Assembly: GCF_030124145.1 (NCBI RefSeq) | Contig: NZ_JASKMS010000020.1 | Coordinates: forward strand, 1 to 64,000 | From: Streptomyces sp. 378 | Lineage (GTDB): Bacteria > Actinomycetota > Actinomycetes > Streptomycetales > Streptomycetaceae | Length of the DNA stretch: 64,000 bases | Direction of reading: 5' to 3' | Shown: in pieces, positions 14,489 to 35,510 of the stretch | How positions within the stretch are numbered: position 1 is the stretch's first letter | Layout: each line of letters opens with the position of its first letter | Notes under the pieces: generated by a model | What the model was told of the DNA's origin: nothing | Seen by the model: only the letters and a program-made list of their open reading frames with translations | Database searches by the model: none | Program-made: the position numbers and the translations under genes

Positions 14489-14504
14489 GGGCCTAGGAGC
14501 CGCC

Positions 14505-15302: not shown

Positions 15303-15321
15303 ACCAGCCCAAGGGGTAGTC

Positions 15322-18106: not shown

Positions 18107-18130
18107 GTCAGTACCCCGCTTCCGCGCTGC

Positions 18131-18526
18131 TCACAGCGCCCGGAGCCCGTTGATCACGTCGCGCAGAATACTCTCGTCCGGCAGCTCGGCAGGGGGCACG
18201 GGCCGGTTCACATGGACGAACTCCGCGTCCACGAGATCTCCGACGAGGACCCGCACCACCCCGATCGGCAGGTCGAGTTCCGCTGCGAGTTCGGCGACCG
18301 ACTGTGGGTCGTCGCGGCACAGTTCGACGATGTCCACGTGCTCCGGGGAGAGCATGTGGTCCGCTTCCGGGTCGTCCGCCTGCGGTTCCGCGACCACGAC
18401 CGCGATCAGGTCCAGGCGGTGCTGGCCCTGGCTGCTGGTGCGGCCACGGGTCATCGCGTACGGACGGACGACCGGTCCGGCCTCGTCGTCGAACCAGTGG
18501 CTTCTTCCCTGACCGTCAGCGCTCAT
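18131..18526 (-). CDS. cvnC: conservon DUF742 protein CvnC
   Basis: The 131-aa protein is a DUF742 member with a winged-helix-like core (about 60-110: LSPEHVDIVELC, then SVAELAAELDLPIGVVRVLVGDL). It starts with the typical WFDDEAGPVVRPYAMTRGRT segment. CvnC is thought to bridge CvnB and the GTPase CvnD. It is 9 bases downstream of cvnB. Here it ends ...VINGLRAL, the usual family end, and is followed by an extra ORF rather than by cvnD. Confidence 0.92.
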   Translation of the reverse strand: MSADGQGRSHWFDDEAGPVVRPYAMTRGRTSSQGQHRLDLIAVVVAEPQADDPEADHMLSPEHVDIVELCRDDPQSVAELAAELDLPIGVVRVLVGDLVDAEFVHVNRPVPPAELPDESILRDVINGLRAL

Positions 18527-18535
18527 GTCATCCCA

Positions 18536-18967
18536 CTACCCGCCCGCGGGCAGATCGGTGCGCGGAGCGGCGGCCAGATGCACGCCCACCCGCTTCACGA
18601 GGAGCGTCATCTCGTAGGCGACCTGGCCGACGTCCGAGTCGGCGTCCGAGAGGACGGCGAGGCAGCTGCCGTCGCCGGCGGCCGTGACGAACAGGAAGGC
18701 GTCGTCGAGTTCGACGACCGTCTGGCGGACGTTGCCGGCCTCGAAGTGGCGTCCCACGCCCTTGGCGAGGCTGTGGAACCCGGAGGCGACGGCGGCGAGG
18801 TGCTCGCTGTCCTCCCTGGTCAGGTCCTTGGAGACGCCCGTCGGCAATCCGTCGCCGGAGAGCACGAGGGCCTTGCGAATGCTCGCGACGCGGTCCACCA
18901 GGTCGTCGAGGAGCCAGTTCAGCTCGCCCGTGTTGGTGGTGTGGCCGGTCGCCTTCGGTGCGGTCAT
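18536..18967 (-). CDS. cvnB: conservon roadblock/LC7 protein CvnB
   Basis: The 143-aa protein is a roadblock/LC7 fold member (ELNWLLDDLVDRVASIRKAL; LAVLSDADSDVGQVAYEMTLL). Such proteins act as activating partners of small GTPases of the MglA type. The ATG overlaps the stop of cvnA by four bases (18964-18967), which couples their translation. Confidence 0.94.
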   Translation of the reverse strand: MTAPKATGHTTNTGELNWLLDDLVDRVASIRKALVLSGDGLPTGVSKDLTREDSEHLAAVASGFHSLAKGVGRHFEAGNVRQTVVELDDAFLFVTAAGDGSCLAVLSDADSDVGQVAYEMTLLVKRVGVHLAAAPRTDLPAGG

Positions 18968-21900
18968 CGACCGTCCCCCTCTGTCGTTCCTTGTGGTGCT
19001 GTGCCGCTGTGGGCGGCATCGCCCGCGGCGTTCTCCTCGCGGCCTCGCTGCCAGCCGCGCTGGAGCGAGGCCATGCGGCTTCGTACTTCATCGGCGTCGC
19101 GTTCGACGGGCTCGGCCCCGTCCTCGGTGCGCGGCTGCGAGGTCCGCTTCAGCTGCGGGGCCAGGTTGGCCTGCCGGACGCGCCGGGGCAGCGGCGTGGT
19201 GCCGGAGCCGGTCCCGCGGGGTGCGGCGCCGGCTCCCGGGCGCGTGGTGCCACTGGTGGTCTCCGGCGTGGAGCCGGAGGGGTGATCGGGTGCGTTCGGG
19301 CCGCTCGCCGCGATCTCCGCGCGGCGGGTGCGCCTGGGCGGACCGGACGGCTCCGGCAGGTCGCCGGGTGCACTGCCGGGCGAGGCCGGGGCACTGGTGC
19401 GGTCCTCGTCGCGGTCGGCGGCGCCGATGCCGCGGCGGACGGAGTCCGTCCCTCGACGACGGGCCGGCAGCGGGGGCGGGGCGTCCGGCCGGGCCGCGCC
19501 CCGCCGGCTGCCGGTCGAGGAGCTCTCGGTGCGGCTCCGGTCGGGAAGGGCGGTGGCGGGCTCGGGGCCGGAGCGGCCGGGCGTGGGCCCTTCGCCGCGG
19601 CGGCGTTGCGGAAGCGCGGAGGCGGGGCCCGGCTCCGTTCGGCCGGTGGTCGTGGGGGTCTCCTCGTCCGCGTTCCCCCGCCGGGGGCGCTGGTCCGTGA
19701 CCGGCCGCCCGTGCGAACTGACCAGTTTGGGGGTGTGGCGGCGGGACAACGGGACGGGAGCGCTCAGCTCCTCCTCGCCGTCGGTCCGGTCCCCGGCGCT
19801 GCGGGCGTCGGCGCCCTGGCGGCGCGGATCGCGACGTCCCGCCGTCTCGTCCGGGGCGCGGGTGAGCGAGTGCCGGGGACGGAACAGGCCGCCGTGTTCG
19901 CTGTCGTCGTCCTCGATGGCGCCGGGGAAGTCGCCGACGGTGTCCAGGTCGACGGGCGCCTCCAGTTCGACCGGACCGTCCAGCAGGGAGGCGGGCACGC
20001 CGGGACGCTGGGCGGACGCCTGGGACAAGGCGGCGCGGCGGTTGTCCTGCGGCTCGCTCCCGGGCGCGAGCCGGGGGCGGTCGAGCCGGAACCCGATGCC
20101 GTTCGTGTCGGGGACGTCGTCCGTCAGCAGCGCGTCGGGGATGAAGACCACGGCGGTCGTGCCGCCGTACGGCGAGGGCTGCAGGGAGACCCGGACGTTC
20201 TGGCGCTGGGCGAGTCGGCTGACCACGAACAGGCCGAGGCGGTCGGTGTCGGACAGTTCGAACTCCGGTGTCTCGGCGAGCCGGAGGTTGGCGTCCAGGA
20301 GCGCTTCGGCGGCCATGCCGAGGCCGCGGTCGTGGATCTCCAGGGTGAAGCCGTTGGCGACGCGCTCGCCCAGGACCTGGACGGCGGTGTGCGGCGGGGA
20401 GAAGACCGTGGCGTTCTCCAGGAGTTCGGCCACGAGGTGCGTGAGGTCGGCGACGGCCGGGCCGCTGATGGCCATCCTCGGCAGGCGGCGGACCTCGATG
20501 CGTTCGTAGTCCTCGACCTCGGCGACGGCGGCGCGCACGACGTCCATGAGCTGGACGGGCTTGCGCCACTGACGGGAAGGCGCGGCGCCGGAGAGGATCA
20601 CGAGGCCTTCGGCGTGCCGGCGCATGCGGGTGGTCAGGTGGTCGAGGCGGAACAGGTCGGCGAGTTCCTCGGTGTCCTCGGTCCGGCGTTCCATGGCGTC
20701 GAGCAGGGTCAGCTGCTTGTGGAGGAGGACCTGGCTGCGGCGCGCGAGGTTGACGAAGACCTCGGAGACGCCGGCGCGCAGCTCGGCCTGCTTGACGGCG
20801 GCCTCCACGGCGGCGCGCTGCAGGGTGTTGAGGGCCTGGCCGACCTCGCCCATCTCGTTCTTGTCGTATTCGAGGCGCGGGACCTCGGTCTCGACGTCGA
20901 CCTGCTCGCCCGCCGAGAGGCGGCGCATCACGCTGGGCAGCCGCACTCCGGACGCCTCGTGGGCCTCCAGACGCAGTTGCCGCAGATCGCGGATGAGGGT
21001 GCGGCCGACGCGTACGGACAGGAAGAGGGAGAGCAGGAGCGCGATCAGGCCGAGGGCGCCCGCGATGACCGCCTTGGCGATGACGCCGACGGCCACGGGG
21101 TGGACGCGGTCCTGGTAGCGGTCGTTGGCCTGGTCGTTGAGGGTGCCGAGTTCGTCGAGCACATCGCCGGCGGCGCTGTTCCAGCTCTGGGCGGAGACGC
21201 CGCGGGGGGTCCCGGAGCCGGTGGAGACGGCGGCTTCCTCGGCCACGCGCAGGGGAGCGGAGGAGGCGTTCTTCCAGAAGCTCTGGTAGCGGTCGCGCTC
21301 CGCCGCGGGCAGCAGCGGCAGGTTGACGTCGTACATCAGCGTGCGCTGGGCCACGAGGTCGGAGATGTCGCGCTCTTCGGAGCGGGAGATCCTGCCGACG
21401 ATCAGGGCGGAGCCGAGGAGGGCGTCCTCGCGGGAGAGCAGTTCGCGGGCGCGGGCGAGGTTGACCAACGCGCGGTACTGCTTGTCCAGTTCGACGTTGT
21501 CGACCACGTGGAGGTTGGCGAGGAGGACGTAGCAGGGGTCGACGAGCCGGTTGTAGAGGTCGAGTGCCTGGGCGCGGTTGACGGTGCCGTCCTCGACACT
21601 GCGGCGCAGCGACTCGATGCCGTCGAAGGCGTCCAGGACCGCGGTCAGCCGCTCGTCGGTGTCCGCGCCCATCGCGTCGCGCACGTCGGGGTGCCGGGCG
21701 TTCTCGCGGATGCTGCCGACGGCCTCGTCGGTGGCGGTCCGGCTGCGGCGGAGGGCGGCGAGTCCGTCGGAGGCACGGGGGTCGGCGAGGTGGACGAGGG
21801 TCTGGCGGCGTTCCTCCTGGAGGACGCGCACGGTGTCCTCGATGGGGTAGCCGATCTTCTCCACCACGGACGACACGTTGAACAGGTCGCCCGCCTCACG

Positions 21901-22005
21901 TCCCGTGAGGACCGTGGCGAAGGCCCAGATCGCGGTCAGGGACACCAGCGGCACGAGAAGCAGCGCCACGATCTTCCGGCGGATGGACTTCCCGCGAAAG
22001 CGCAT
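18964..22005 (-). CDS. cvnA: conservon sensor histidine-kinase-like protein CvnA
   Basis: The 1013-aa protein begins with a membrane helix (about 10-32), then an extracellular nitrate/nitrite-sensing-like helical domain (about 35-315), a second membrane helix (about 320-345), a HAMP-like segment, a dimerisation region around LDHLTTRMRRHAEGL and an HATPase domain (LVAELLENATVFSPP; RGLGM; DRLGLFVVSRLA). The last 350 residues are disordered and rich in Pro, Arg, Ser and Thr. The family lacks a clear partner response regulator and signals through CvnB-CvnD. The start at 22005 gives MRFRGKSIRRKIVALL. A 420-base region upstream should contain its promoter. Confidence 0.93.
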   Translation of the reverse strand: MRFRGKSIRRKIVALLLVPLVSLTAIWAFATVLTGREAGDLFNVSSVVEKIGYPIEDTVRVLQEERRQTLVHLADPRASDGLAALRRSRTATDEAVGSIRENARHPDVRDAMGADTDERLTAVLDAFDGIESLRRSVEDGTVNRAQALDLYNRLVDPCYVLLANLHVVDNVELDKQYRALVNLARARELLSREDALLGSALIVGRISRSEERDISDLVAQRTLMYDVNLPLLPAAERDRYQSFWKNASSAPLRVAEEAAVSTGSGTPRGVSAQSWNSAAGDVLDELGTLNDQANDRYQDRVHPVAVGVIAKAVIAGALGLIALLLSLFLSVRVGRTLIRDLRQLRLEAHEASGVRLPSVMRRLSAGEQVDVETEVPRLEYDKNEMGEVGQALNTLQRAAVEAAVKQAELRAGVSEVFVNLARRSQVLLHKQLTLLDAMERRTEDTEELADLFRLDHLTTRMRRHAEGLVILSGAAPSRQWRKPVQLMDVVRAAVAEVEDYERIEVRRLPRMAISGPAVADLTHLVAELLENATVFSPPHTAVQVLGERVANGFTLEIHDRGLGMAAEALLDANLRLAETPEFELSDTDRLGLFVVSRLAQRQNVRVSLQPSPYGGTTAVVFIPDALLTDDVPDTNGIGFRLDRPRLAPGSEPQDNRRAALSQASAQRPGVPASLLDGPVELEAPVDLDTVGDFPGAIEDDDSEHGGLFRPRHSLTRAPDETAGRRDPRRQGADARSAGDRTDGEEELSAPVPLSRRHTPKLVSSHGRPVTDQRPRRGNADEETPTTTGRTEPGPASALPQRRRGEGPTPGRSGPEPATALPDRSRTESSSTGSRRGAARPDAPPPLPARRRGTDSVRRGIGAADRDEDRTSAPASPGSAPGDLPEPSGPPRRTRRAEIAASGPNAPDHPSGSTPETTSGTTRPGAGAAPRGTGSGTTPLPRRVRQANLAPQLKRTSQPRTEDGAEPVERDADEVRSRMASLQRGWQRGREENAAGDAAHSGTAPQGTTEGDGR

Positions 22006-22425
22006 GGCCTCCCCCAGCTCGGGCCCCCGGGCTACCCGGGGTACACATGTGCGTCAACAAACGGCGAGAGCCTACTACCGACCCACAGGGAACTCGAAGA
22101 CCGGCCCGGAGCCTGAACTTCCGCGCCGGAGGCACGGCGTCGGGAGTTGTCCGGTCATGGCGGGAGTTGTCTCCCCGAAACGGGTGGTGGCGGTGGGGGT
22201 CAATCCCCGTGTTCAGCCAGAGCGGTTGGCTGAAACTTTTCGTTATCCGGGAATCTTCGTGAGGAGTTGTTCGTCCTTCCCCATGGGAAACGGGGGCGGA
22301 ATCGGCCACAGGAGCCGCGTCCCGCATCTGGGCGGCGTAAAACAGCGCAAGCCGGGCAGCCGCTGGGGAGCACGGGTCTTCGGATGCGAGCGAGCGGTCT
22401 GCTGGCGGTGGGGAGTGACACGGTG
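22006..22425. other. divergent intergenic region upstream of cvnA
   Basis: No gene is convincing in these 420 bases. They hold the promoters of cvnA (leftward) and of the membrane-protein gene (rightward). An 11-base direct repeat CGGGAGTTGTC occurs at 22141-22151 and 22161-22171, two helical turns apart, and could be a regulator site. A relatively AT-rich stretch lies at 22225-22260. Confidence 0.5.
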
Positions 22426-22989
22426 ATGGGCACGGCGGAACGGCACGGTGCGCCGAGGGCGGACGGGGCGCAGATGGCGAGGCCCCGGAAGACGCAGGCG
22501 ACCGATCGCGACGGTCCCGGGAATCCGGTGACGCCTGCGGAGCGGGGGCCGGGGGTTCCGGCTCACGAGATGGGCCGCGGCGCCCGGGAGCAGCAGTACC
22601 ACCGGCCGCTGTGGGTCGAGGAGCCCGCGCGGCGGCGCCGCTTGCCGGATCCCGTGCGGACGGCTGCCGTGCGGGCGGTCCTCCTCATAGCCGTGACGCT
22701 GATTCAGGCGATGGTGGCCTTCCTGTGCACGATGGCCGGGTCCTGGCTGGCGTTCCCGATGGTGATCAGCAGCGTGGTCAGCACGATCGCGGCCACCTGG
22801 GGGGCGCTCGACGTGTGGGTGACCCGCCAGGTCTGGAACCAGCGCAACGGAGTGGTGTCCGTGCCGAGCAGCACGGCCCGGGCCCTGCGGCGCGAGCGGC
22901 GCCGGACCCGGCGGCAGGAGCGGGCCGCCGCGCGGGCACAGGGGCGGATAGGCCGGCGAGGTGGAGCCGGACAGTTGTCCCACTCGTGA
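22426..22989 (+). CDS. small membrane protein, unknown function
   Basis: The protein is 187 aa with a charged N-terminus (about 1-75), two adjacent membrane helices (about 85-108 and 112-138, separated by AGSWLAFP) and a very basic Arg-rich C-terminal tail. I do not recognise a family. The start at 22426 (or the GTG one codon earlier at 22423) follows GGGGAG at 22410-22415. It is divergent from cvnA and convergent with the MukB-like gene 101 bases away, so it may or may not be functionally tied to either. Confidence 0.75.
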   Translation: MGTAERHGAPRADGAQMARPRKTQATDRDGPGNPVTPAERGPGVPAHEMGRGAREQQYHRPLWVEEPARRRRLPDPVRTAAVRAVLLIAVTLIQAMVAFLCTMAGSWLAFPMVISSVVSTIAATWGALDVWVTRQVWNQRNGVVSVPSSTARALRRERRRTRRQERAAARAQGRIGRRGGAGQLSHS

Positions 22990-23090: not shown

Positions 23091-26000
23091 CTAGGAAACC
23101 GGGCGTTTGTACATCCTGGTCGCCGTGATCTCGCTGTGGACCGCCTCGCCGTCCTGGGGCTGCTGCGGCAGACCGGGGCGCAGGTGTTCCTCGACGCTGA
23201 TGTATTTGAGGCCCGCCCTCAGGTCGGCGTCGTTGCGCATGCGGATGACCAGGGGGAACTCGGCCAGGGCGGTGGTGTCGAACAGGCCGGTGGTGTACAG
23301 CAGCTGCACACCCAGGGCGTCCGACACCGCCCGCTGCAGTTCCAGCAGGTACGTGGCGTTGGCGCGGCCGATGGGGTTGTCGAGGAACAGCGTGCCGGCG
23401 TGCCGGTGCTTGTCGCGGCCCCGGTCGTTCGAACGCAGCGCGGCCATCGTGCAGTACAGGGCGATGGCGGCGGTGAGGAGCTGGCCGCCGGAGAAGACGT
23501 CGCCCATCTGCCCGACGGGGACGCGCTCGGCGCGCAGCACCGCGTCCGGCTTGAGGATCTCCACGGCGACGCCCTTGGGTCGGAGGGCCGCCGCGACGCC
23601 CCGCAGCAGCAGGGACATGCCGTCGCGCCGCAGGTCGGAGTTCTTCTTGACGGCGGCGCGCGTCGCCTCGTCGATGACCTCACCGAGCCGCTCGGTGAGG
23701 GTCGCCTGGTCGGGCTCCTCGAAGCGGATACGGAGGAACTCCTGCCCGGACCACTCGCCGAGGCCCTCCGGAAGCCGGGAGAGCCGCTGGGCCGAGCGCA
23801 GGGTGGCCAGCGCCGATTCGACCAGGCCGCGCAGGCGGTCCACGATCGAGTCGCGGTTGCGCTCCAACTGCTCCAGTTCGTCGGTCAGGACGCGCAGCCG
23901 GGGTGCGAAGGCGTCCGCCCACTTCTGGGCGTGCTCCGGCAGCGCGGAGGCGGGCAGTTCGCGGATCTGCTGGCGGGCCGGGGTGCGGACCTGCTCGTAG
24001 CGCGTGGAGTTGGCGTGCCGGACGAGGATGTCGCCGGCCTCGCGGAGGGCGGCCTCGGCCGTGGACAGGTCGGCCGCGCAGCCGCGCAGGGAGCGACGGG
24101 CCTCGGCGGCGGACTGGCGGGCCTCCTCGGGGCTGCCGGGGTACGGCTCCGTCTCCTCCTGCTCCTCGTCGGTGCCGTGCTCGCGCAGCAGATCGCGGAG
24201 CAGGGCGGCGATCTCGTCGAAGCCGCTCGCCGCGTCCTCGGCGGCGCGGTGGGCGTCGAGGAGGTCGGCGTGCGCCTCACGGGCCCGGTTCAGCGCCTCG
24301 GTGTGGGAGGCCAGTTCGGCGGTGGCGGTGCGCAGCAGGGTCTGCGCGTGCTCCGCGTCGCGCGGCTGGAGCTCCTCGGGGAGCCCGGTGTGCGCCTCGC
24401 CGTCCTCGGGTGCGAGTCGTTCGGCCTCGCCGCGCAGCCGCCCGAGCTGCTCGCTCGCGGTCGACATCCGTGTCTCCAGGAGCTGCACCAGTTCCTCGGC
24501 GCGGGCGGCGGCGGCCTGGCGGCTGGGCCCGTCCGAACCGTCGGGTGATTCGAGGAGTTGCTCCGCGCGCGTACGGACCTTGTTGCTCAGCCGGTCCAGC
24601 TCCGCGCGGGCCGCGCTCTCGTCGCTCTCCGCGCGGGCCTGCTCGGCGCGCAGGTCGGCTCCCACGCCGACCTTCTCGTACAGCTGGGACGCGGCCCGGT
24701 AGGCCTCGCGCAGGGCGGGCAGGGAGGTTCGGGGGGCCTGGGCGTCCTCCTCGGGCACGTCGTCGGGAGCGCCCGCGATCTCGGAGCGCTCCGCGCGCAG
24801 GGCGCGGGCGGTGCGGCGGGCGTCGTCGGCGGCGCGCTGGGCGGCACGCCGGTCCTCGTCGGCGGCCCGGGCCCGCTCCAGGCAGGCCTGGGCACTCGCC
24901 TCGGACTCGGCGGCCTCGTCGGCCAGCTCGCGCACCTTGACCTGCCAGCCGGCCCGCTCGCGCAGCCGGAAGGCGAGCCCGGCGAGGGCGTCGGCGGAGC
25001 GGCGGGCCTTCTGGGCGGCCTCCTGCCGTTCGTCCCGGACGCGTGCGGCCTCGGCGGCGGCCTCGTCGGCCTCGGCCCGCACGGTCCGGGCCTCGGCCAG
25101 TTCGGCCTCCGCCTCCTCGGCGAACTCCCGGGTGTCCTGGGCCGCCCGGGCCAGTTCGGCCAGCCGGCCGGCCGGACAGCCGGTGCGCCAGGAGGCGAGC
25201 CGGGCGGCCAGCTCGCGGTCCTTGCCGAGCCGGGCGGCAAGCGTGCGGATCTCCTCGTCCCGCTCGGTCGCCCGGGCGCGCAGTGCCTGCCGTTCCTCGT
25301 CGGCGGCGTGCTCGTCGTGCATGGCCGGGTTCGGCGGCACGAGGAAGACGTCGCCGCTGTCGGTGTCCGGTGCCGGGGTCGGGGCGAGCAGGGCGGCGGC
25401 GGTGCCGACGGCCACGGCGGAACGGGGCAGCAGAGCCGCGTCGCCCAGCGCCTCCCGGGCACGGGCGTGGGAGTCGGGGTCGGTGATGATCACCCCGTCG
25501 ACGAGTTCGGGTCGGGCGGCCAGCACCCGCGCGTGGTCGGCCGGGTCGACTGCCTGGGCGAGATAGCGCCAGCCGGGCAGGGCGGGGATGCCGTGCTCAC
25601 CGAGGAACTCCACCGTGGCCAGCACATCCGGGCCGGGCGGCAGCAGTCCGCCGTCGCCGAGCGCGCCGAGGATGCGGGAGTCGTCGGCGGCGGCCGTGCG
25701 CAGCTCGAACAGTTGCCGTTCCGCGGAACCGACGGTGTCGTCGAGGAGTTCGCGCAGGTCGTCGGCGAAGCGGTCGAGGTCTTCGGGGCTGAGCCCCGGG
25801 GTGCCGGAGGCCGACTGTGCGTTCGGCTCGGTGTCCGCGCCGTGGCGGGGCTGCGGGATGCCCGGGCGGGTTTCCGGGGTCAGGCTGAGCAGTTCCGCCA
25901 GCCGCTTCTCCCCCGCCAGGGCGTCGGCGGTACGTCGCTCGGCCTCGTACGACCGCTCCGCCGCCGTCGCCGCGTCCGCCGCGCGGGCCGCGGTCAGCTC

Positions 26001-27719
26001 GGCGCGGCTCTCGGTGGAGGCGGCTTCGCGCGCGTGCTCCGTGGCCCGGCGGGACGCTTCACGGGCGGAGTCCCAGGCCGCCACAGCGGTCTTCTCGGCG
26101 TCGCTGGCGGCGAGGGCCGCGCGGGCCGGGTCGGCGTCGGGCGCGGAGTCATCGAGCCAGCCGGCCCGGACCGCCTCGGCGGTCTCCTGCTCGACCTCGG
26201 CGAGGCGCTGCTTGAGGTGACCGATCTCGCTGCGGGCGCGCTGGGCCTGCGTGGCGGCGGCAGTGGAGTCCCGGTAGGCCGCGTCGCTGACCTCCTGGAG
26301 GGCGGCGGAGCGCTCCTCCTCCTCGTTGGCGTGGCTCTCGGCCTTCTCGGCGGCCGCGTGCAGGGCCCGGACGAGGTCCACGGCGGCCCTGGAGCGGGCC
26401 GCCAGGGCGGGCGCGGCGTCCCGCTCGGCCTCCTGGATCGCGGCGGACACGCGGGCGACGCGGTCGGAGGCGGCGCGGTGGCGCAGTACGACCTCGGCGG
26501 CCTGCCAGGCCGCGTACAGGGTGCGGGCGTCGGCGAGCTCGCGCTTCTGCGCGGCGGCGGACTTCTCGGCCGCCGCGAGGGCCAGCGAGGCGTGCCGGTA
26601 GGCGAGTTCGGCGGAGATCAGGGCGCTGCGCTCGCGGGCCGCCTCGGCGTGCGTGACGGCGTAGGCGGCGGCGGTGACCCGCTGGGCCAGGTCGGCGGCC
26701 CGGACCCGCTCCCGCACCCCGCGCGCGGACAGCCTGCGGGCCAGGGTCCGGGTACGGCGTTCGGCTCCGGCGTGGACGTCACGCGCGCGTGAGCGGGCCT
26801 CGGCGGCCTCGACGATCCGGCCGAGGAGGTCCACCGATCCGGCGGTGAAGTCGCGTTCGGCGATCAGCTCGGCACGCCGGCCCAGCTTGTTGCCGAAGCC
26901 GCTGACCAGGTCTGCGAGCCCGTCGGTGTCGCGGGTGTCGGTGACGGCACGCAGCAGCAGGTCGGTGAAGTCGGCGTCCTTCTTGACGGCGAAGAGACCG
27001 GCGGCCTCGCCTTCGTCGGCGTTCATCTCCCGCTGGTAGCGGAAGAGTTCGGGGTCGAGGCCGAGGTCGCCGAGGTGCTCGATCCAGCGGTCGTGGATCT
27101 CCTCCCAGTGGACCTCCAGGTGCGGGTAGGTCTTGCCCGCCTCCGTGAGGGCGTCGCGGAAGCCCTTCATGGTGCGGCGCCGCCCGCGCGCACTGGACTG
27201 GCCCTCGACCGGGGCCCGTACGGCGGTGGCCTCCGCCACGGGGAGGTTGTCGAGGCTCAGCCCGGGGCCGGGCCGGAAGGAGTACCAGGCCTCGGCGAAC
27301 TTCCGCGGGTCGTTGGAGACCTGCCGTCCGCGCCACTCGCTGACCTTGCCGACGACGACGCACTCGCCGGTCAGCACGTGCTGCCACTCCAGCGCCACGT
27401 GTCCGCAGTCGTCGGCGAGGAGGAATTTGCGCAGCACGCCGGAGCTGGCGCCGCCGAGCGTGTTCCGGTGTCCGGGCAGCATCACCGAGAAGATCAGCTT
27501 GAGCAGCACCGACTTGCCGCCGCCGTTCTCCAGGAAGAGCACACCCGCGGGCGCCGGCCGGCGCGGCGGGCCGACCGGCTCCTCCTCGAAGAACTCCGCC
27601 TGCGCGGGCGCGGGGTCGGGCACGATCTCCCCCACGCCCCGCAGGTCAAGCACGGTGTCGGCGTAGCGCGCACCGGCGGGCCCGATCGAGTAGAGGCGGA
27701 CCCGGGACAGCTCGTACAT
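23091..27719 (-). CDS. MukB/JetC-like SMC ATPase
   Basis: The 1542-aa protein has an N-terminal ATPase head with Walker A LENGGGKS (residues 63-70). Long Ala/Glu/Arg-rich coiled coils (about 300-620 and 780-1330) flank a hinge-like globular part (about 640-760). The C-terminal head carries the signature FSGGQLL (1409-1415) and Walker B GTLFLDN (D1447). The residue after the Walker B Asp is Asn1448, where most SMC ATPases have the catalytic Glu. The N-terminal block resembles the large protein of TIGR02680/MukB-type systems. It is the last gene of a MukF-MukE-MukB-ordered operon. Expected role: DNA loop extrusion or compaction, or plasmid and phage surveillance. The ATG at 27719 follows GAGAG. 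Confidence 0.82.
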   Translation of the reverse strand: MYELSRVRLYSIGPAGARYADTVLDLRGVGEIVPDPAPAQAEFFEEEPVGPPRRPAPAGVLFLENGGGKSVLLKLIFSVMLPGHRNTLGGASSGVLRKFLLADDCGHVALEWQHVLTGECVVVGKVSEWRGRQVSNDPRKFAEAWYSFRPGPGLSLDNLPVAEATAVRAPVEGQSSARGRRRTMKGFRDALTEAGKTYPHLEVHWEEIHDRWIEHLGDLGLDPELFRYQREMNADEGEAAGLFAVKKDADFTDLLLRAVTDTRDTDGLADLVSGFGNKLGRRAELIAERDFTAGSVDLLGRIVEAAEARSRARDVHAGAERRTRTLARRLSARGVRERVRAADLAQRVTAAAYAVTHAEAARERSALISAELAYRHASLALAAAEKSAAAQKRELADARTLYAAWQAAEVVLRHRAASDRVARVSAAIQEAERDAAPALAARSRAAVDLVRALHAAAEKAESHANEEEERSAALQEVSDAAYRDSTAAATQAQRARSEIGHLKQRLAEVEQETAEAVRAGWLDDSAPDADPARAALAASDAEKTAVAAWDSAREASRRATEHAREAASTESRAELTAARAADAATAAERSYEAERRTADALAGEKRLAELLSLTPETRPGIPQPRHGADTEPNAQSASGTPGLSPEDLDRFADDLRELLDDTVGSAERQLFELRTAAADDSRILGALGDGGLLPPGPDVLATVEFLGEHGIPALPGWRYLAQAVDPADHARVLAARPELVDGVIITDPDSHARAREALGDAALLPRSAVAVGTAAALLAPTPAPDTDSGDVFLVPPNPAMHDEHAADEERQALRARATERDEEIRTLAARLGKDRELAARLASWRTGCPAGRLAELARAAQDTREFAEEAEAELAEARTVRAEADEAAAEAARVRDERQEAAQKARRSADALAGLAFRLRERAGWQVKVRELADEAAESEASAQACLERARAADEDRRAAQRAADDARRTARALRAERSEIAGAPDDVPEEDAQAPRTSLPALREAYRAASQLYEKVGVGADLRAEQARAESDESAARAELDRLSNKVRTRAEQLLESPDGSDGPSRQAAAARAEELVQLLETRMSTASEQLGRLRGEAERLAPEDGEAHTGLPEELQPRDAEHAQTLLRTATAELASHTEALNRAREAHADLLDAHRAAEDAASGFDEIAALLRDLLREHGTDEEQEETEPYPGSPEEARQSAAEARRSLRGCAADLSTAEAALREAGDILVRHANSTRYEQVRTPARQQIRELPASALPEHAQKWADAFAPRLRVLTDELEQLERNRDSIVDRLRGLVESALATLRSAQRLSRLPEGLGEWSGQEFLRIRFEEPDQATLTERLGEVIDEATRAAVKKNSDLRRDGMSLLLRGVAAALRPKGVAVEILKPDAVLRAERVPVGQMGDVFSGGQLLTAAIALYCTMAALRSNDRGRDKHRHAGTLFLDNPIGRANATYLLELQRAVSDALGVQLLYTTGLFDTTALAEFPLVIRMRNDADLRAGLKYISVEEHLRPGLPQQPQDGEAVHSEITATRMYKRPVS

Positions 27720-27753
27720 GGCGGACTCTCGTAGATCTTCGTGAGATGGGGGG

Positions 27754-28635
27754 TCAGGAGGCGTGGAAGGGCAGCCCGGCGTCGGCGACCAGCTCCAGGT
27801 CGTCGCCCTCCTCGGGGGGCAGCAGCGTCGGTGTGCCGTCGGTGACCGGGACGACGCCCAGTTCCAGCAGTTCGGCCATGGCGGCGCTGCCGGCCATGTC
27901 GCGGACCTGGAGCTGGTAGCGGGCGGTGGTGCGGTACGTGCCGCCGTGGTCGTCGCCGGTGCGCTGCAGGAATCCGGAGTCGGTGAGGAAGGTGACGGCC
28001 TTGGCGACGATGCCGGTGGTCGAACCGGCCAGCCGGCGCGCGTCCTTGGTGGCGCCGGTGGCGCTGCGCCGCACCCAGATCCGCCAGGCGGCCTCCAGCC
28101 CGGGCGCGTCGGTCGCCGGGTCGGTGTTCTCGCCCTGCTCGGCGGCGCGTTCCTCCAGCCGTCGGCAGGCCTGGCGCACGAAGGCGTCGACGCCGTTGAC
28201 CGTCACCCGGCCGATGTAGCCGTCGTCGGCGAGGTCCTCGGGACGCGGGAACGCCAGGGCGGCGACGGCGAGATGGGCGAGCCCGTGCAGGAACCGGTCA
28301 CCGCCGTCGGCGGACGTACGACGCGCGTAGTCGCCCATGCGGACGGCGAACACCGAGTCCTCGGCGGCGGTGACGGCCATGCCCGCGCGCGGGGACACCT
28401 CCAGCACGATCAGCCCCAGGCCGGTCGCCACGGCGTCCGCGAGCCGGGCGAAGGGCGGGTCCTCGCGGTAGCGCCGCAGCAGGTCCGCGTACTCCTGGTC
28501 GCGGGCGGGCTGCAGCTTGGGCTGCAACCCGAAGGACACGAGCCGGGCCGCGTCGGCGGCGTCGGCGGGAGTGACGGCGGCGCCGGCCGCCGGGGCCGGC
28601 CCGTCCGGCTCGCTCCACTCGACATGCTCGCTCAC
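27754..28635 (-). CDS. MukE/JetB-like kite subunit (inferred)
   Basis: The 293-aa soluble protein has no enzymatic motif. Its winged-helix-like C-terminal part (AVTFLTDSGFLQRT) and its position between a kleisin-like and an SMC gene fit the kite subunit MukE/MksE/JetB. The GTG start at 28635 has a strong AAGGAG at the right distance; the longer in-frame start overlaps the upstream gene by more than 170 bases. It lies 31 bases after the MukF-like gene and 34 bases before the MukB-like gene. The assignment rests on operon order and size rather than on a clear motif. Confidence 0.72.
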   Translation of the reverse strand: MSEHVEWSEPDGPAPAAGAAVTPADAADAARLVSFGLQPKLQPARDQEYADLLRRYREDPPFARLADAVATGLGLIVLEVSPRAGMAVTAAEDSVFAVRMGDYARRTSADGGDRFLHGLAHLAVAALAFPRPEDLADDGYIGRVTVNGVDAFVRQACRRLEERAAEQGENTDPATDAPGLEAAWRIWVRRSATGATKDARRLAGSTTGIVAKAVTFLTDSGFLQRTGDDHGGTYRTTARYQLQVRDMAGSAAMAELLELGVVPVTDGTPTLLPPEEGDDLELVADAGLPFHAS

Positions 28636-28666
28636 GGTCGGGACTCCTTGTGCCACTCGTACTGAC

Positions 28667-30223
28667 TCATGCCGCTTCCGTCCGGTCCGCCGCCATCCCC
28701 GCCGCGTCCAGCAGCGCGGTACCGACGATGAGGTCCGCGCCGCCGAACTCCGGATCGTCGAGCTGGGTCCCGTCGTCCACGGCGAACAGCAGCTTCTGCT
28801 CGCCCTGGCGATAGGCCGTGCCGACGGGCGGACTGGCGGCATGCACCGCCAGCAGGGCCACCAGATACGGCAGTTCGGGATCCTGCCGCCGGGCCTGCGC
28901 CAGCAGCCCCGACAACCGGCGCGGCGCGTCCGCCGGCAGGTCGAGCAGTTCCTGCGCCGCCGCGAGCTGCTCCTCGCTGAAGCGGCTGTCGTCCGGGGTG
29001 GCGATCAGGTCGGGCTCCGGCATCTCCGCGCCCAGATGCTCCCGCTCCACCGGCGGCGTCAGCAGTATGTCGACGAGGTCACCGACCCGGACGGACACGG
29101 GCGTGCGCAGCCCGGTGCCGCGGCCGAAGAACGCGTCCGTGACGCGGACGGCCTGCTCCAGCGGCAGCGGCAGCACGGGCGCGAGGAGGTGCCCGTAGAG
29201 GTCCGTCCCCGATGTCGTCATCGGGGTGGCGAAGGCCTGCCGGTCCTGCTCTGCGCGGAACAGCGGTCCGGCTTCCAGCAGCCGGGACTGCAACTGCGTG
29301 TGCCGGCGGATGCAGTCCTTGACGATGTCGACGAGCTCGGCGGCCCGACGCTTGTGCTCGGGGTCCTCGGACTCGTCGCGCGCCTTGCGGATGTTCGTGA
29401 GGATCGCGTTCTCATGGCGGTAGCGGTCGGCGACGTGCTCCAGCGCCTCGGCGATCATGTCGGGCACGGTGGAGAGCCAGTCCACCGCGCGCACGTTGCG
29501 CCGGGTCGCCTCCAGGGCGCGGCGCAGGGTCTCCGAGTACTGCACGGTGCGGTAGCGGGCCTGTTCGGCCGCGAGCTGGGCGTCGGCGAGTCTGCCGCGG
29601 CTGATCAGCACCTCCAGCTTGACCTCGGCGGCGATCTGCGCGCTGGTGACGTCCGTGTCGAGGGCACCGACGAGGACGTTGACCGCTTCGTCTGTGGTAC
29701 GGAGGTAGACCGTGCCGCCGGGCCCGGGGACCTCCTCGATCAGCTTGAAGTCGTAGTCGCGGCGCACATAGGTGCCGTCGGCCGCGAACGTGCCGTACAC
29801 CGCGCGGAAGCCGCGGTCGACACTGCCGACGTTGATCAGGTTCTCCATCACCCAGCGGGCGACCCGCTCGTGCTCGGCGGCGGGCCGTTGCGCGGCCTGG
29901 GCGGCGATGCGCGGGATGAGGCGGGCAACGATCTGGTCGTGGTCCGCGCCCGTGTCGAAGTCCATGTTCAGGGTGACCAGGTCGATGGCCGCGAGGGCCA
30001 CCTCCGCCATGCCGTACACCGAGTACTCCCCGGCGAGGTTCGCCTTGCGCGCGTCGAGGTCGTGCAGCGGCGCGGTGCAGGCGAGCGCACGCAGGCGCCG
30101 CGCCAGGCCCTCGTCGGCGGCCGGCCCCGGGGCGGGGCGCGGCCCCGCGCTGAGCTGGGGCGGAACGCTGTCCGTCGATGCAGGCGAAGTCACGGTGCAC
30201 AGACTAGGTCCTGGGTCTGACAT
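28667..30223 (-). CDS. MukF/JetA-like kleisin (inferred)
   Basis: The 518-aa helical protein has a segment typical of MukF-like kleisins in which a winged helix (YLRTTDEAVNVLVGALD) leads into a long helix (TSAQIAAEVKLEVLISRGRLADAQ), with more helices up to about 330 and a C-terminal globular part. No enzyme motif is present. The start at 30223 has a weak ribosome-binding site, and an in-frame GTG at 30193 is an alternative. The first gene of the three, it follows the GntR gene by 39 bases on the same strand, so read-through from the regulator is possible. Confidence 0.72.
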   Translation of the reverse strand: MSDPGPSLCTVTSPASTDSVPPQLSAGPRPAPGPAADEGLARRLRALACTAPLHDLDARKANLAGEYSVYGMAEVALAAIDLVTLNMDFDTGADHDQIVARLIPRIAAQAAQRPAAEHERVARWVMENLINVGSVDRGFRAVYGTFAADGTYVRRDYDFKLIEEVPGPGGTVYLRTTDEAVNVLVGALDTDVTSAQIAAEVKLEVLISRGRLADAQLAAEQARYRTVQYSETLRRALEATRRNVRAVDWLSTVPDMIAEALEHVADRYRHENAILTNIRKARDESEDPEHKRRAAELVDIVKDCIRRHTQLQSRLLEAGPLFRAEQDRQAFATPMTTSGTDLYGHLLAPVLPLPLEQAVRVTDAFFGRGTGLRTPVSVRVGDLVDILLTPPVEREHLGAEMPEPDLIATPDDSRFSEEQLAAAQELLDLPADAPRRLSGLLAQARRQDPELPYLVALLAVHAASPPVGTAYRQGEQKLLFAVDDGTQLDDPEFGGADLIVGTALLDAAGMAADRTEAA

Positions 30224-30262: not shown

Positions 30263-30958
30263 TCAGCCGTCCTCGCCGACCCGCTGCCGGTACACCTCGA
30301 CGACGCGCTCCAGCGAGTCGTCGAGGTATCCCGCCAGCAGACTCTCGGCCTTCTGTCGGTCGCCGCTATGCAGAACCTCGAGGATCGCGACATTGCGCGC
30401 GATGTACGGTTCGTGGAGTCGCTGTGGCTCGTCCACCACGTGGAAGGCCAGCCGCAGTTCGGCGAAGACGCTCCGCATGAGCTCGTCGGTGCGTTCGCTC
30501 GCGGCGAGAGCGACCAGTTCCCGGTGGAAGTGGATGTTCGCCGTTCCCACCGCTTTCCAGTCACCTTCCCGGGCCGCCGTCCGTCCCTGCGCGACCGCAC
30601 CGGCCAGTCCGTCGAGCCCGTACGGGGGCTGCCCGAGGCCTCGCACGACCGCGCACTCGACGAGCCGGCGGGTGCGGTAGATGTCCTCGACGTCCTCCAC
30701 GGTCAGCACCCGGACGAAGACGCCCCGGTTCAGCTCGTGGACGAGCAGGCGTTCGTGCGTGAGCAGCCGGAACGCCTCGCGCAGCGTGTTGCGGGAGACG
30801 CCGAGCGCGCCGCCGATGCTGTCCTCCGACAGACGGGTCCCGGGCGGGAAGTAGCCTTCGGCGATCCGGCTCCTGAGGATGTCCGAGACCCGTTCCGCGG
30901 TGCTGGTGCGCCCGAGGAGGGCCCGGTCGTCGGCGAGGTCCTTCAACTGCTCTGCCAT
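30263..30958 (-). CDS. GntR-family (FCD) transcriptional regulator
   Basis: The 231-aa protein has an N-terminal winged helix-turn-helix (about 20-80: LSEDSIGGALGVSRNTLREAFRLL) and a helical FCD ligand-binding domain (about 95-215). It is divergent from the MFS/5-oxoproline operon across 170 bases that hold a near-palindrome at 31009-31023. It most likely represses that operon and is released by a pathway acid such as 5-oxoproline. The start at 30958 gives MAEQLKDLADDRALL; upstream in-frame codons run into the promoter. Confidence 0.88.
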   Translation of the reverse strand: MAEQLKDLADDRALLGRTSTAERVSDILRSRIAEGYFPPGTRLSEDSIGGALGVSRNTLREAFRLLTHERLLVHELNRGVFVRVLTVEDVEDIYRTRRLVECAVVRGLGQPPYGLDGLAGAVAQGRTAAREGDWKAVGTANIHFHRELVALAASERTDELMRSVFAELRLAFHVVDEPQRLHEPYIARNVAILEVLHSGDRQKAESLLAGYLDDSLERVVEVYRQRVGEDG

Positions 30959-31008
30959 GCCGGAATTCAATCGCAGATCACAAGTACAACCCAACATGGG
31001 TATTGAGG

Positions 31009-31023
31009 GATCGTTGAACAATC
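31009..31023. promoter_or_regulatory. candidate GntR operator in front of the 5-oxoproline operon
   Basis: GATcGTTGAACaATC is a 15-base near-perfect palindrome (one mismatched pair) in the short divergent promoter region, and includes a possible -35 TTGAAC. Its symmetry and size fit FCD-type GntR operators. The assignment to the adjacent regulator is inference. Confidence 0.6.
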
Positions 31024-31128
31024 CTCTACGGTGCTACACACGGCGTCGCTTTCCCCACCGTCGCGCCGACCGCTTCGGCGCGACCCGGCTCACCCCAAGC
31101 ACCCTCCTCCTCCCTCTGCGAGGTGCCC

Positions 31129-32430
31129 ATGAGCACGACTCCTCCACCGCAGGCAAAGATCGACGACACCCGCGCCACGCCCGCGGAACGCGCCCCGGAC
31201 GACGGGGCGCTGGGCTGGCTGCGGGCCCTGGGCCCGCGCGGGCGCCGCGCGTTCGCCGGCGCCTTCGGCGGCTACGCCCTGGACTCGTACGACTACTTCA
31301 CGCTGCCGCTGAGCATGGTCGCGCTGTCGGCGTACTTCGGCCTGAACAGCGGCCAGACCGGACTCTTCACGACGGTCACGCTCATGGTCTCCGCGATCGG
31401 CGGCGCCCTCGCGGGCGTGCTCGCGGACCGCGTCGGCCGGGTGAAGGCGCTGATGGTCACCGTGATCACGTACGCGGTGTTCACGGTCGCCTGTGGTTTC
31501 GCGCCCAACTACGAGACGCTGCTGGTCTTCCGTGCGCTCCAGGGCCTCGGTTTCGGCGGTGAGTGGGCGGTCGGCGCGATCCTCGTTGCCGAGTACGCGA
31601 GCGGCAAGCACCGGGGGCGCACGCTCGGCGCGATCCAGAGCTCGTGGGCCGTGGGCTGGGGCCTGGCCGTGATCGTCTACACCCTGGTCTTCTCGGTGGC
31701 CGACGACGACCTGGCCTGGCGCATCATGTTCTGGACCGGGGCCCTGCCCGCGCTGCTCGTCGTCTGGCTGCGGCGCAATGTGCACGACGCGCCCGAGGCG
31801 ACCGCGGTGCGTGAACAGAGCGCGCAGAAGGGCTCGTTCACGGCGATCTTCAAGCCGGGCCTGCTGCGGGTCACGATCTTCGCGGTGCTGCTGTCCACCG
31901 GTGTGCAGGGCGGCTATTACACGCTGGCCACCTGGGTGCCGACGTATCTGAAGACCGAGCGCGACCTCTCGGTCGTCGGCACCGGCGGCTATCTGACGTT
32001 CCTCATCTCGGGCGCCTTCATCGGCTACCTGACCGGCGGCTACCTCACCGACAAGCTGGGCCGGCGGCGCAACATCTGGCTGTTCGCCCTGCTGTCGGCG
32101 CTCTGCATCCTGGCGTACGCGAACATCCCGAGCGGCGCCAACACCCTGCTCCTGGTGCTCGGCTTCCCGCTCGGGTTCTGCATGTCGGCGATCTTCAGCG
32201 GCTTCGGGTCCTACCTGAGCGAGCTGTACCCGACGGCGGTGCGCGGGACGGGGCAGGGCTTCACGTACAACACCGGCCGCGCGGTGGGCGCCGTGTTCCC
32301 GACCATGGTCGGGTTCCTGGCCGACAGCTGGGGCGTCGGCGGCGCGCTGGTCTTCGGCGCGATCGGCTACGGCATCGCGGCCCTGGCGCTGCTCGGGCTG
32401 CCGGAGACGCGTGGGAAGGAGCTCGCGTGA
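31129..32430 (+). CDS. MFS transporter
   Basis: The 433-aa protein has 12 predicted membrane helices and the MFS loop motif [13 protein letters not shown] between helices 2 and 3. [16 protein letters not shown] resembles the sugar-acid and aromatic-acid sialate/metabolite:H+ symporter groups. As first gene of the operon with DUF1445 and PxpABC it is expected to import 5-oxoproline, D-glutamate or a related acid. The ATG at 31129 follows GCGAGG. Its stop overlaps the GTG of the next gene (GTGA, 32427-32430). Confidence 0.9.
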
Positions 32431-33254
32431 ACCGCACGAGCACCGAGGACCGACCCCTGCTCCTCGTCGACGAGCACGCGCGCGCGTGGAGCCCCGCGAC
32501 GGCCCGGGCCCGCTTCCGTGACGGCCTGACGGGCCCCACGGCGGGGGTCGCGGCGGGCCACACCCAGGTCAACCTGGTCTCGGTGCCCGCCGACTGGGCC
32601 TACGACATGCTGCTGTTCTGCCAGCGCAACCCCAAGCCCTGCCCGGTCCTGGACGTCACCGACGCCGGGTCCTGGACGACCGTGCTCGCCGAGGGCGCGG
32701 ACCTGCGCACGGACCTGCCGCGCTACCGGGTGTGGCGGGACGGCGAGCTCGTGGACGAACCGACCGACGTGCGCGCGTACTGGCGGGACGACCTGGTGTC
32801 GTTCCTGATCGGGTGCAGCTTCACCTTCGAGTGGGCGCTGGGCGAGGCGGGCGTGCCCATCCGCCACGTCGAGCAGGGCCGCAACGTCCCGATGTACGTG
32901 ACGGGCCGGCAGTGCCGTCCGGCGGGGCGGCTGCACGGGCCGCTGGTGGTGTCGATGCGGCCGGTGCCGCCCGGACATCTGGCGGCGGCGATCCGGGAGA
33001 GCAGTCTGTTGCCTGCGGTGCACGGCAGCCCCGTGCACTGCGGCGACCCCGCCGGGCTCGGCATCGGCGATCTCGGCCGCCCCGACTTCGGCGACCCGGT
33101 GGACGCCGAGCCGGACGACATCCCGGTGTTCTGGGCGTGCGGGGTGACCCCGCAGGCGGCGGTCATGGCCTCGCGTCCGCCGTTCGCCCTCACGCACGCC
33201 CCGGGGCAGATGTTCCTCACCGACGCCCGCGACGAGCAGTACCGCGTGGCCTGA
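32427..33254 (+). CDS. DUF1445 putative hydro-lyase (D-glutamate cyclase family)
   Basis: The 275-aa protein belongs to DUF1445 (UPF0317), marked by [23 protein letters not shown] and [18 protein letters not shown]. The homologous domain in the human DGLUCY protein has D-glutamate cyclase activity and makes 5-oxo-D-proline. Bacterial members are usually annotated only as hydro-lyases. The GTG start overlaps the MFS stop. Placed directly before PxpABC, it would supply oxoproline to 5-oxoprolinase; this link is inferred from context. Confidence 0.86.
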
Positions 33255-33271
33255 CAGGAGACACTGGACAC

Positions 33272-34030
33272 ATGGCCTGCATCGATCTGAACGCCGACCT
33301 CGGCGAGGGCTTCGGCCGCTGGCGGCTCACCGACGACGAGCAACTGCTGTCCGTCGTCACCAGCGCCAACGTGGCCTGCGGCTTCCACGCCGGGGACGCG
33401 GTCACCATGCGCCGGGTGTGCGAGCTGGCCGCCGAGCGCGGGGTCCGGATCGGCGCGCAGGTCTCCTACCGGGACCTGGCCGGATTCGGGCGGCGCGCGA
33501 TGGACGTGCCGCCCATCGAGCTGGCGGCCGAGGTCGCGTACCAGATCGGCGCCCTGGAGGTGTTCGCACGCGCGGCGGGCGCCCGGGTGGCCTATGTCAA
33601 ACCGCACGGCGCGCTCTACAACCGGGTCGTGGGCGACGCGGAGCAGGCCGCCGCGGTCGTCGACGGCGTGCTCCTCGCGGACGCCGCCCTGCCCGTCCTC
33701 GGCCTGCCCGGCTCGCGCCTGCTGGAGCTGGCCGGGAAGGCCGGACTGCCGGTCGTCACCGAGGCCTTCGCGGACCGGGCGTACACCGATGAGGGCACCC
33801 TGGTGCCGCGCGCCCGGGAAGGTGCCGTGATCACCGACCCGGACACCGTGGTGGAACGCTCCCTGGGCCTGGCCCGCTCCGGCGAGGTCGTCTCCCGCTC
33901 GGGGACGCGCATCGAGGTACGCGCGCGTTCCCTGTGCCTGCACGGCGACACCCCGGGCGCGGTGGAGCTGGCGCGCCGGGTGCGGGAACGGCTGGAGGCC
34001 TCGGGCGTCCGCGTGGAGGCGTTCGTATGA
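33272..34030 (+). CDS. pxpA: 5-oxoprolinase subunit A (LamB/YcsF family)
   Basis: The 252-aa protein begins with the family signature IDLNADLGEGFG and has the segment ANVACGFHAGD; both are diagnostic of LamB/YcsF (PxpA). With PxpB and PxpC it opens 5-oxoproline to glutamate with ATP. The start at 33272 follows AGGAG at 33256-33260. Its stop overlaps the ATG of pxpB at 34027. Confidence 0.95.
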   Translation: MACIDLNADLGEGFGRWRLTDDEQLLSVVTSANVACGFHAGDAVTMRRVCELAAERGVRIGAQVSYRDLAGFGRRAMDVPPIELAAEVAYQIGALEVFARAAGARVAYVKPHGALYNRVVGDAEQAAAVVDGVLLADAALPVLGLPGSRLLELAGKAGLPVVTEAFADRAYTDEGTLVPRAREGAVITDPDTVVERSLGLARSGEVVSRSGTRIEVRARSLCLHGDTPGAVELARRVRERLEASGVRVEAFV

Positions 34031-34644
34031 GGGTCCTGCCCGTCGGCGACGACGCCCTGCTCGTCGAGGTCTCCTCGGGCGACGAGGCCGAGGCCCTGCA
34101 CGCGGAGCTGCTGCGACGCCGCGCGGAGGGCTCGCTCCCGGCCCGCGAGATCGTGCCGGCGGCCCGCACGGTCCTCATCGACGGCCTCGACTCCCCCGCC
34201 CGGCTGGCCGCCGAACTGACCGCCGCCGAGCTGCCGCCCCCTCCGTCACGCGCTCACGCGGTCGTCGAGATCCCGGTGCGCTACGACGGCCCGGACCTGC
34301 CCGACGTCGCCGCGCACTGGGGCGTGCCGGTGCCGGAGGTCGCCCGCATCCACGCGGGCACCGAGTTCCGGGTCGCCTTCTGCGGCTTCGCGCCCGGCTT
34401 CGGCTACCTCACCGGGCTGCCGCCGCGCTACGACGTCCCGCGCCGGGCCACCCCGCGGACGGCCGTCCCGGCGGGGTCGGTCGCCCTGGCGGGCCCGTAC
34501 ACGGGCGTGTACCCGCGCTCGTCGCCCGGCGGCTGGCAGCTCATCGGCAGCACGGACGTCGTGCTGTGGGACCACACGCGCGTGCCGGCGGCGCTGCTGG
34601 CGCCGGGTACGCGGGTGCGGTTCGTCCCCGAGGCGGGGTCATGA
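34027..34644 (+). CDS. pxpB: 5-oxoprolinase subunit B (KipI/allophanate-hydrolase-like)
   Basis: The 205-aa protein shows the PxpB/KipI signature FCGFAPGFGYLTGLP followed by PRRATPRTAVPAGSVALAG. It forms the active 5-oxoprolinase with PxpA and PxpC. Four-base overlaps on both sides (34027-34030 and 34641-34644) couple translation with its partners. KipI-type kinase inhibition is an older annotation that the context does not support. Confidence 0.94.
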   Translation: MRVLPVGDDALLVEVSSGDEAEALHAELLRRRAEGSLPAREIVPAARTVLIDGLDSPARLAAELTAAELPPPPSRAHAVVEIPVRYDGPDLPDVAAHWGVPVPEVARIHAGTEFRVAFCGFAPGFGYLTGLPPRYDVPRRATPRTAVPAGSVALAGPYTGVYPRSSPGGWQLIGSTDVVLWDHTRVPAALLAPGTRVRFVPEAGS

Positions 34645-35510
34645 CGGACCGTGCGCTCGCCGTGGTCCGGGCCGGGGCCCTGACCACCGTGCAGGACACG
34701 GGCCGCCCGGGCCACGCCCACCTGGGTGTGCCCCGCTCCGGGGCCCTGGACCGGACCGCCGCCGACCTCGTCAACCGGCTCGTCGGCAATCCGCCCGGGG
34801 CGGCCGTGCTGGAGACGACCCTCGACGGCTGTGCCGTCCGCCCCCGTTCGAGCGTCACCGTGGCGGTCGCGGGCGCGCCCTGCCGGGTCACGGTGGACGG
34901 GCGGCCCGTCGCCTGGTGCGCACCGGTGCGGGTACCCGCCGGGGCGCTGCTGGACGTCGGACCCGCCGCCGCGGGCGTACGCGCCTACGTGGGGATCTGC
35001 GGTGGCATCGCGGTCGAGCCGGTGCTCGGCAGCCGGTCGACGGACCTGCTGTCGGGGCTCGGTCCGCCCCCGCTCGCGGACGGCGCGGTGCTGCCCCTGG
35101 GCCGGCCGACGGGCGGCCACGCGCGCGTGGACGTCGCCCCGCAGCCGGCGCCACCGGCCGAGCTGGTGCTGCGGGTGACACTCGGCCCGCGCGACGGCTG
35201 GTTCACACCGAAGGCCGTACACACCTTCGGCTCCCGCGCCTACCGGGTGTCCTCCGCGAGCAACCGCATCGGGCTGCGCACCGAGGGACCGGCCCTCGAG
35301 CGGGCCCGGCCGGGCGAACTCCCCAGCGAGGGCATGGTGCTGGGTGCCGTGCAGGTTCCGCCGGACGGCCTGCCGGTGGTGTTCCTGGCCGACCACCCGA
35401 CGACCGGGGGCTACCCGGTGATCGCCGTGGTCCGTGCCGCCGACCTTCCCGCCGCCGCTCAGGCGGTCCCCGGGACGCCGGTCCGCTTCGTGGCCGTGCG
35501 CCGCCGCTGA
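34641..35510 (+). CDS. pxpC: 5-oxoprolinase subunit C (KipA/biotin-dependent-carboxyltransferase-like)
   Basis: The 289-aa protein carries the PxpC/KipA signature TVQDTGRPGHAHLGVPRSGALD and the C-terminal SASNRIGLRTEGPAL. It is the last gene of the five-gene operon and meets the convergent SGNH-hydrolase gene 31 bases later. Together with pxpA and pxpB it makes glutamate available from cyclised glutamate. Confidence 0.94.
   Translation: MTDRALAVVRAGALTTVQDTGRPGHAHLGVPRSGALDRTAADLVNRLVGNPPGAAVLETTLDGCAVRPRSSVTVAVAGAPCRVTVDGRPVAWCAPVRVPAGALLDVGPAAAGVRAYVGICGGIAVEPVLGSRSTDLLSGLGPPPLADGAVLPLGRPTGGHARVDVAPQPAPPAELVLRVTLGPRDGWFTPKAVHTFGSRAYRVSSASNRIGLRTEGPALERARPGELPSEGMVLGAVQVPPDGLPVVFLADHPTTGGYPVIAVVRAADLPAAAQAVPGTPVRFVAVRRR

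Follow-up and report, generated by a model that had tools for sequence, protein, structure and literature searches.

Genes of the operon

The window is a 64,000-nt stretch of DNA from Streptomyces sp. 378 and carries, on the minus strand at positions 23091-30223, an operon of three genes that encode proteins of 518, 293 and 1542 aa. Inspection of the open reading frames (ORFs) returned these genes in the order JetA-JetB-JetC, as the initial annotation of this DNA had described them. By its profile matches the operon is a type III Wadjet-like JetA-JetB-JetC set that lacks the nuclease JetD. The first gene (28667..30223, minus strand; 518 aa) encodes a JetA3/MksF-like, kleisin-type subunit and matches the PADLOC profile JetA3 (PDLC00567) with E=7.9e-186. 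The second (27754..28635, minus strand; 293 aa) encodes a JetB3/MksE-like subunit with a GTG start at 28635, beyond which the mechanical ORF extends further upstream, to 28842. The third (23091..27719, minus strand; 1542 aa) encodes a JetC3/MksB-like ATPase of the SMC (structural maintenance of chromosomes) type, recognized by its match to PADLOC JetC3 (PDLC00588, E=0) and by its ATPase motifs. The intergenic gaps are 31 bp (JetA-JetB) and 34 bp (JetB-JetC). JetB of the window had no match in the PADLOC profile search and is assigned by position and by homology, being 56.5% identical to JetB of a complete JetABCD operon on a Rhodococcus plasmid, which in turn matches PADLOC JetB3 weakly (E=1.2e-4). 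Pfam and NCBIfam searches gave no match for any of the three proteins, nor did the profiles TIGR02677-02680; sequence searches of the PDB returned coiled-coil and chance matches only and no type III Wadjet chain. The kleisin label of JetA and the KITE label of JetB rest on family profile and position, and both folds are putative. The set had at first been called MukF-MukE-MukB-like; its nature as a three-gene Jet/Mks set stands, but its affiliation is to type III Wadjet, and the comparison with the E. coli proteins (see below) was not significant.

JetC carries the Walker A motif NGGGKS (residues 65-70, 27510..27527, within LENGGGKSVLL, residues 63-73), the ABC signature FSGGQ (residues 1409-1413, 23481..23495) and the Walker B motif LFLDN (residues 1444-1448, 23376..23390), all on the minus strand. 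NGGGK is invariant in a 20-sequence JetC alignment, and the motifs of the window are common to orphan relatives, i.e. those of sets without JetD, where the gene start is correctly placed. The JetC frames of three loci (L160, L171 and L260) appear shortened (1054, 1179 and 915 aa), be it by truncation, frameshift or a misplaced start. Long Ala/Glu/Arg-rich, coil-like stretches flank a Gly/Pro-rich segment at residues ~600-800 (approximately 25320..25922, minus strand), the position expected of a hinge; this hinge-like interruption of the coil is placed by composition only. The ATPase motifs, coiled coils and hinge initially attributed to the large protein were all recovered, the latter two as compositional features. 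Canonical SMC proteins and MukB have a catalytic Glu directly after the Walker B Asp, and JetC has an Asn there. All type III-like JetC proteins examined show the same D-N pair (LFLDNPIG or similar), JetD-bearing relatives included, so the Asn is a family trait and not a mark of decay in the orphans. If the JetC motor hydrolyses ATP, the catalytic base may be another residue.

The ratio of nonsynonymous to synonymous substitutions (dN/dS, Nei-Gojobori), taken between the window sequence and 79-80 Streptomyces sequences at ~0.3 synonymous differences per site, is 0.074 for JetA, 0.142 for JetB and 0.127 for JetC, which indicates purifying selection. One subunit of a Wadjet system is gone, as would be expected if the operon were a decaying remnant, but that explanation is contradicted by the intact frames and motifs, by the dN/dS values of 0.07-0.14 and by the retention of the set in nearly all genomes, and it can practically be dismissed.

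JetD and the distribution of the three-gene set

Inspection of the locus revealed no JetD adjacent to the operon. The Pfam profile JetD_C found nothing credible in the 8.67-Mb genome of the strain, the best match being to an unrelated ORF of 788 aa (E=0.15). Since JetD_C scores type III JetD proteins poorly, down to E ~1e-4, a clade-specific profile was built from 13 JetDs adjoining related JetABC sets; its only hit in this genome was a chance match (E=0.009) to a frame interrupted by two stops. PADLOC JetD3 (PDLC00594), which matches the type III JetDs of related JetABC sets, also detected no JetD in the genome. The absence of a neighbouring JetD had been pointed out before, and with the three profiles it now extends to the whole genome. 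JetD is likewise missing beside all 109 orphan loci inspected, namely 80 from named Streptomyces, 16 from other genera, 12 from a second actinomycete family (f18, where loci with >1.2 kb of sequence beyond JetC were counted) and one from a third (f46). Of the other type III-like sets, 27 have sufficient sequence beyond JetC, and in all 27 JetD follows it directly.

A type III JetD (strong JetD3 match) is present in 19 of 247 Streptomyces genomes, each time next to a JetC of its own that is not the orphan one; in genome G218 this JetC is a 147-aa piece. A JetD encoded elsewhere and conserved together with the orphan operon was not found among these genomes. Such accessory Wadjet loci could in principle supply JetD in trans to the orphan set, but the other 92% of the genomes, including that of the window, have none, which contradicts the proposal for the window's genome, and 19 of 19 JetDs adjoin their own JetC; this explanation is very improbable. 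In genome G407 a JetD3 fragment (218-aa frame, contig C82:12087-12584) lies on another contig than the orphan JetABC and may be a remnant or belong to a second set. For type I systems, the motif IFDR at the JetB N-terminus was reported as a contact to JetD (PMC10586767). Inspected by eye, the N-termini of type III JetB showed it in neither JetD-bearing nor orphan sets, so that the motif is uninformative on the loss of JetD.

Complete JetABCD sets with ~48-60% JetA identity were found on the Rhodococcus plasmid and in some actinomycetes, and one set in family f18 (L168, 60% JetA identity) retains JetD. In a JetA tree of 76 sequences (IQ-TREE, midpoint root) the orphans of the Streptomycetaceae form one clade (support 100/98) and those of family f18 a separate one (100/100), both among JetD-bearing sets. 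This nesting indicates that JetD was probably lost from the orphan sets; loss is preferred to gain because the orphans have JetD-bearing sets on either side, the root being a midpoint only. A constraint joining the two orphan groups into one clade was not rejected by the approximately unbiased (AU) test (p=0.417), so one loss and two losses are indistinguishable. The orphan of family f46 (L165, genome G600) clusters with a clade of JetD-bearing sets (92/85) and may represent a separate, independent loss. Its JetABC adjoins GAPDH- and PGK-like genes (identified by eye from translated starts).

The JetA ortholog is present in 241 of 247 Streptomyces genomes (238 of the 240 of good quality), usually as a single copy and mostly at ~80-98% identity. 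Across the Streptomycetaceae (family f1, 17 of 17 sampled genera) it occurs in 148 of 150 genomes, or 144 of the 145 good ones. The labels Streptomyces and Streptomycetaceae for the surveyed groups rest on the 80 best named relatives of the window, which are Streptomyces and one Kitasatospora. Most of the few genomes without the ortholog are fragmented or incomplete assemblies; one member of family f1 (G634) has a distant JetA match only (E=1.5e-16). In single-contig genomes jetA lies mostly ~0.6-2.5 Mb from a contig end. In a 395-genome sample of the class, the set was found outside the Streptomycetaceae in two places only, family f18 (JetA ~54-64% identical; 19 of the 35 genomes sampled) and the one f46 genome. 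Within the Streptomycetaceae, the GC content at third codon positions (GC3) is 0.92-0.94 in the orphans versus 0.81 in the JetD-bearing sets, and the genes of the latter overlap, whereas the median gaps in the Streptomyces orphans are 77 and 65 bp. The clean sequence differences between orphan and JetD-bearing proteins amount to two positions in JetA (Thr193 versus Glu and Val264 versus Ile) and none in JetB.

The set might still serve in defence without a nuclease, if incoming plasmid or phage DNA were recognized by extrusion and then silenced or sequestered by compaction, uncut, as with Smc5/6. The ancestry of the set in a plasmid-defence family would agree with this, and restriction of extrachromosomal DNA by Smc5/6 through compaction without cutting has been proposed (PMC10586767). 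The near-universal, single-locus, vertical distribution and the high GC3 differ, however, from the sporadic occurrence of JetABCD (19 of 247 genomes), and such a function is unlikely, although less so than the other alternatives considered here.

Gene neighbourhood

In 16 other genera, only JetA, JetB and JetC occur together in all; the GntR gene accompanies them in 2, the MFS gene in none, the small downstream ORF in 10 and the conservon gene cvnA in 8. No co-conserved fourth gene stands beside the orphan set across 17 genera or in family f18, where the genes downstream of JetC differ from those in the Streptomycetaceae. These neighbourhoods bear on the proposal that the operon encodes a complex for defence or repair whose effector is unrelated, another nuclease or topoisomerase that is encoded elsewhere and replaces JetD. 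In Wadjet, JetABC senses the shape of DNA and activates a partner (PMC10586767, PMC12647877), and gene neighbourhoods would not reveal a partner acting in trans. Besides the missing fourth gene, the positions that cleanly separate orphan from JetD-bearing sets, Thr193/Glu and Val264/Ile of JetA and none of JetB, do not point to an exchanged interface, and an effector of this kind appears rather improbable. Of the two roles that had been offered at the outset, the second condensin is preferred to the defence complex with a new effector, given the core status, vertical inheritance and ameliorated GC content of the set and the lack of any fourth gene conserved with it.

Downstream of jetC, and convergent to it, lies an ORF for a small putative membrane protein (22267-22989, plus strand), in agreement with the opposite-strand gene described initially; by gene order it equals SCO1403 of Streptomyces coelicolor, and it is found beside the set in 49 of 80 Streptomyces loci. 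Upstream, positions 30263-35510 hold genes for a GntR/FCD regulator, an MFS transporter, and LamB/YcsF and carboxyltransferase proteins (5-oxoprolinase, pxp-type). The GntR gene noted earlier is present, but it is not a stable partner of the set. It was rejected as a member of the operon, since its distance from jetA ranges from 23 to >500 bp and 14 of the 16 other genera lack it; it more likely belongs with the MFS, LamB/YcsF and carboxyltransferase genes than with jetABC. A conservon (NIT/HATPase kinase, Roadblock, DUF742) adjoining glpF-glpK occupies positions 17500-22005 and 14271-16839.

The acetoacetate-CoA ligase gene, the D-Ala-D-Ala dipeptidase-like gene and the conservon kinase gene of the window correspond to SCO1393 (PMC9282665), SCO1396 (PMC13011467) and SCO1402, which is CvnA4 (PMC9739842). 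From literature annotation and gene order, not alignment, the operon is inferred to be SCO1404-1406 and the GntR gene SCO1407. A location at SCO1631-1634 was ruled out, as HelY and Tat genes lie there. SCO1403, the counterpart of the small ORF divergent from cvnA, is annotated as 'putative membrane protein', and its upstream region is bound by ScbR (PMC4595836); the protein turned up when PkaI and the spore-wall complex were screened by two-hybrid assay (PMC4416010). A search of 5.39 million open-access full texts gave no mention of SCO1404 to SCO1408.

Proposed role as a second condensin and comparison with known systems

Of the canonical Smc-ScpAB complex that the initial annotation had supposed for the host, Smc and ScpA were recovered in the genome of the window. 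Their presence excludes a MukBEF-like replacement of Smc-ScpAB by the operon, which would instead be a second condensin. The operon is probably a domesticated type III Wadjet motor that acts in this capacity beside Smc-ScpAB; the sequence data suggest that a chromosome organiser with a housekeeping task arose here from a defence machine. The three-gene, nuclease-free content beside Smc and ScpA would fit a condensin of the MksBEF type with putative kleisin and KITE folds.

Wadjet systems extrude DNA by means of JetABC, and JetD makes the cut when extrusion is completed (PMC12647877, PMC10586767). The operon would descend from a plasmid-defence system of the type III Wadjet kind whose JetD nuclease was lost, with JetABC becoming fixed in the chromosome of the streptomycetaceous ancestor; a second actinomycete family has a related orphan set. 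The complex would consist of a JetC SMC dimer with JetA as the kleisin-type and JetB as the KITE-type subunit; it may load on DNA, hydrolyse ATP and extrude or bridge loops. Extrusion without JetD would end without cleavage and leave the extruding motor, which could help in compaction and separation of chromosomes in multigenomic hyphae and during sporulation. Deletion of smc in S. venezuelae gave no anucleate spores, and the defects of the hupS smc double mutant were described as 'still rather mild' (PMC8410768); this mild phenotype leaves room for a second condensin in Streptomyces.

Several observations weigh against a second condensin. The alignments (hhalign) with single E. coli MukF, MukE and MukB sequences were not significant, with probabilities of 0.3%, 0.2% and 27%, the last reflecting coiled coil. 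AlphaFold models of JetA and JetB, for which the inputs were near-identical Streptomyces sequences only, reached a mean predicted local distance difference test (pLDDT) score of 39.6 and 37.9, too poor to confirm a kleisin or KITE fold. With the family-wide Walker B Asn, ATP turnover by JetC cannot be taken for granted, and retention in 19 of 35 genomes of family f18 appears to be less than an indispensable condensin would predict.

A bolder version of the condensin proposal, which is doubtful, holds that the Streptomycetaceae turned a circle-sensing plasmid-defence motor into an organiser dedicated to their large linear chromosomes, with a duty outside that of Smc-ScpAB and possibly a new trans-acting partner. 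The handling of chromosome arms or ends and the unlinking of many chromosomes in sporogenic hyphae would be examples of such a duty. Work on chromosome folding in Streptomyces treats Smc as the condensin and reports mild deletion defects (PMC8410768, PMC13121528), for which a universally retained second SMC complex would, if real, be an obvious reason. It would also offer a clear, genome-dense case of the route from defence to housekeeping, proposed but unsettled for MksBEF and MukBEF, in a family that also has JetD-bearing sister systems.

Among known systems, the operon shares with type III Wadjet (JetABCD, with a DUF3584 JetC) the A-B-C gene order and the matches to the JetA3 and JetC3 profiles; it differs in having no JetD, a core instead of a sporadic distribution, a higher GC3 and, in Streptomyces, relaxed gene spacing. 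The MksBEF of Pseudomonas aeruginosa is likewise a three-subunit SMC complex without MksG/JetD that stands beside Smc-ScpAB; it is thought to derive from JetABCD by loss of JetD and contributes to chromosome organisation (PMC10586767). A chromosomal role was shown there, whereas the set of the Streptomycetaceae is known from its genes. P. aeruginosa MksBEF also belongs to another lineage, presumably with a separate loss of JetD, while the Streptomycetaceae orphans arise from within the type III sets of actinomycetes. The MksBEFG (EptABCD) systems of Corynebacterium glutamicum and Mycobacterium smegmatis are likewise actinomycete Muk-like SMC operons beside Smc-ScpAB, but unlike the Streptomycetaceae operon they retain the nuclease MksG; that of C. 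glutamicum takes part in the control of plasmids (PMC10123090). E. coli MukBEF resembles the putative complex by analogy only, in its architecture of SMC, kleisin and KITE subunits, and its MukB has a Glu after the Walker B Asp where JetC has Asn. Borrelia burgdorferi, a bacterium with a linear chromosome, likewise has a second SMC-like protein beside Smc, namely MksB, which promotes long-range contacts (PMC10406323); it has neither MksE nor MksF, whereas the Streptomycetaceae retain all three subunits.

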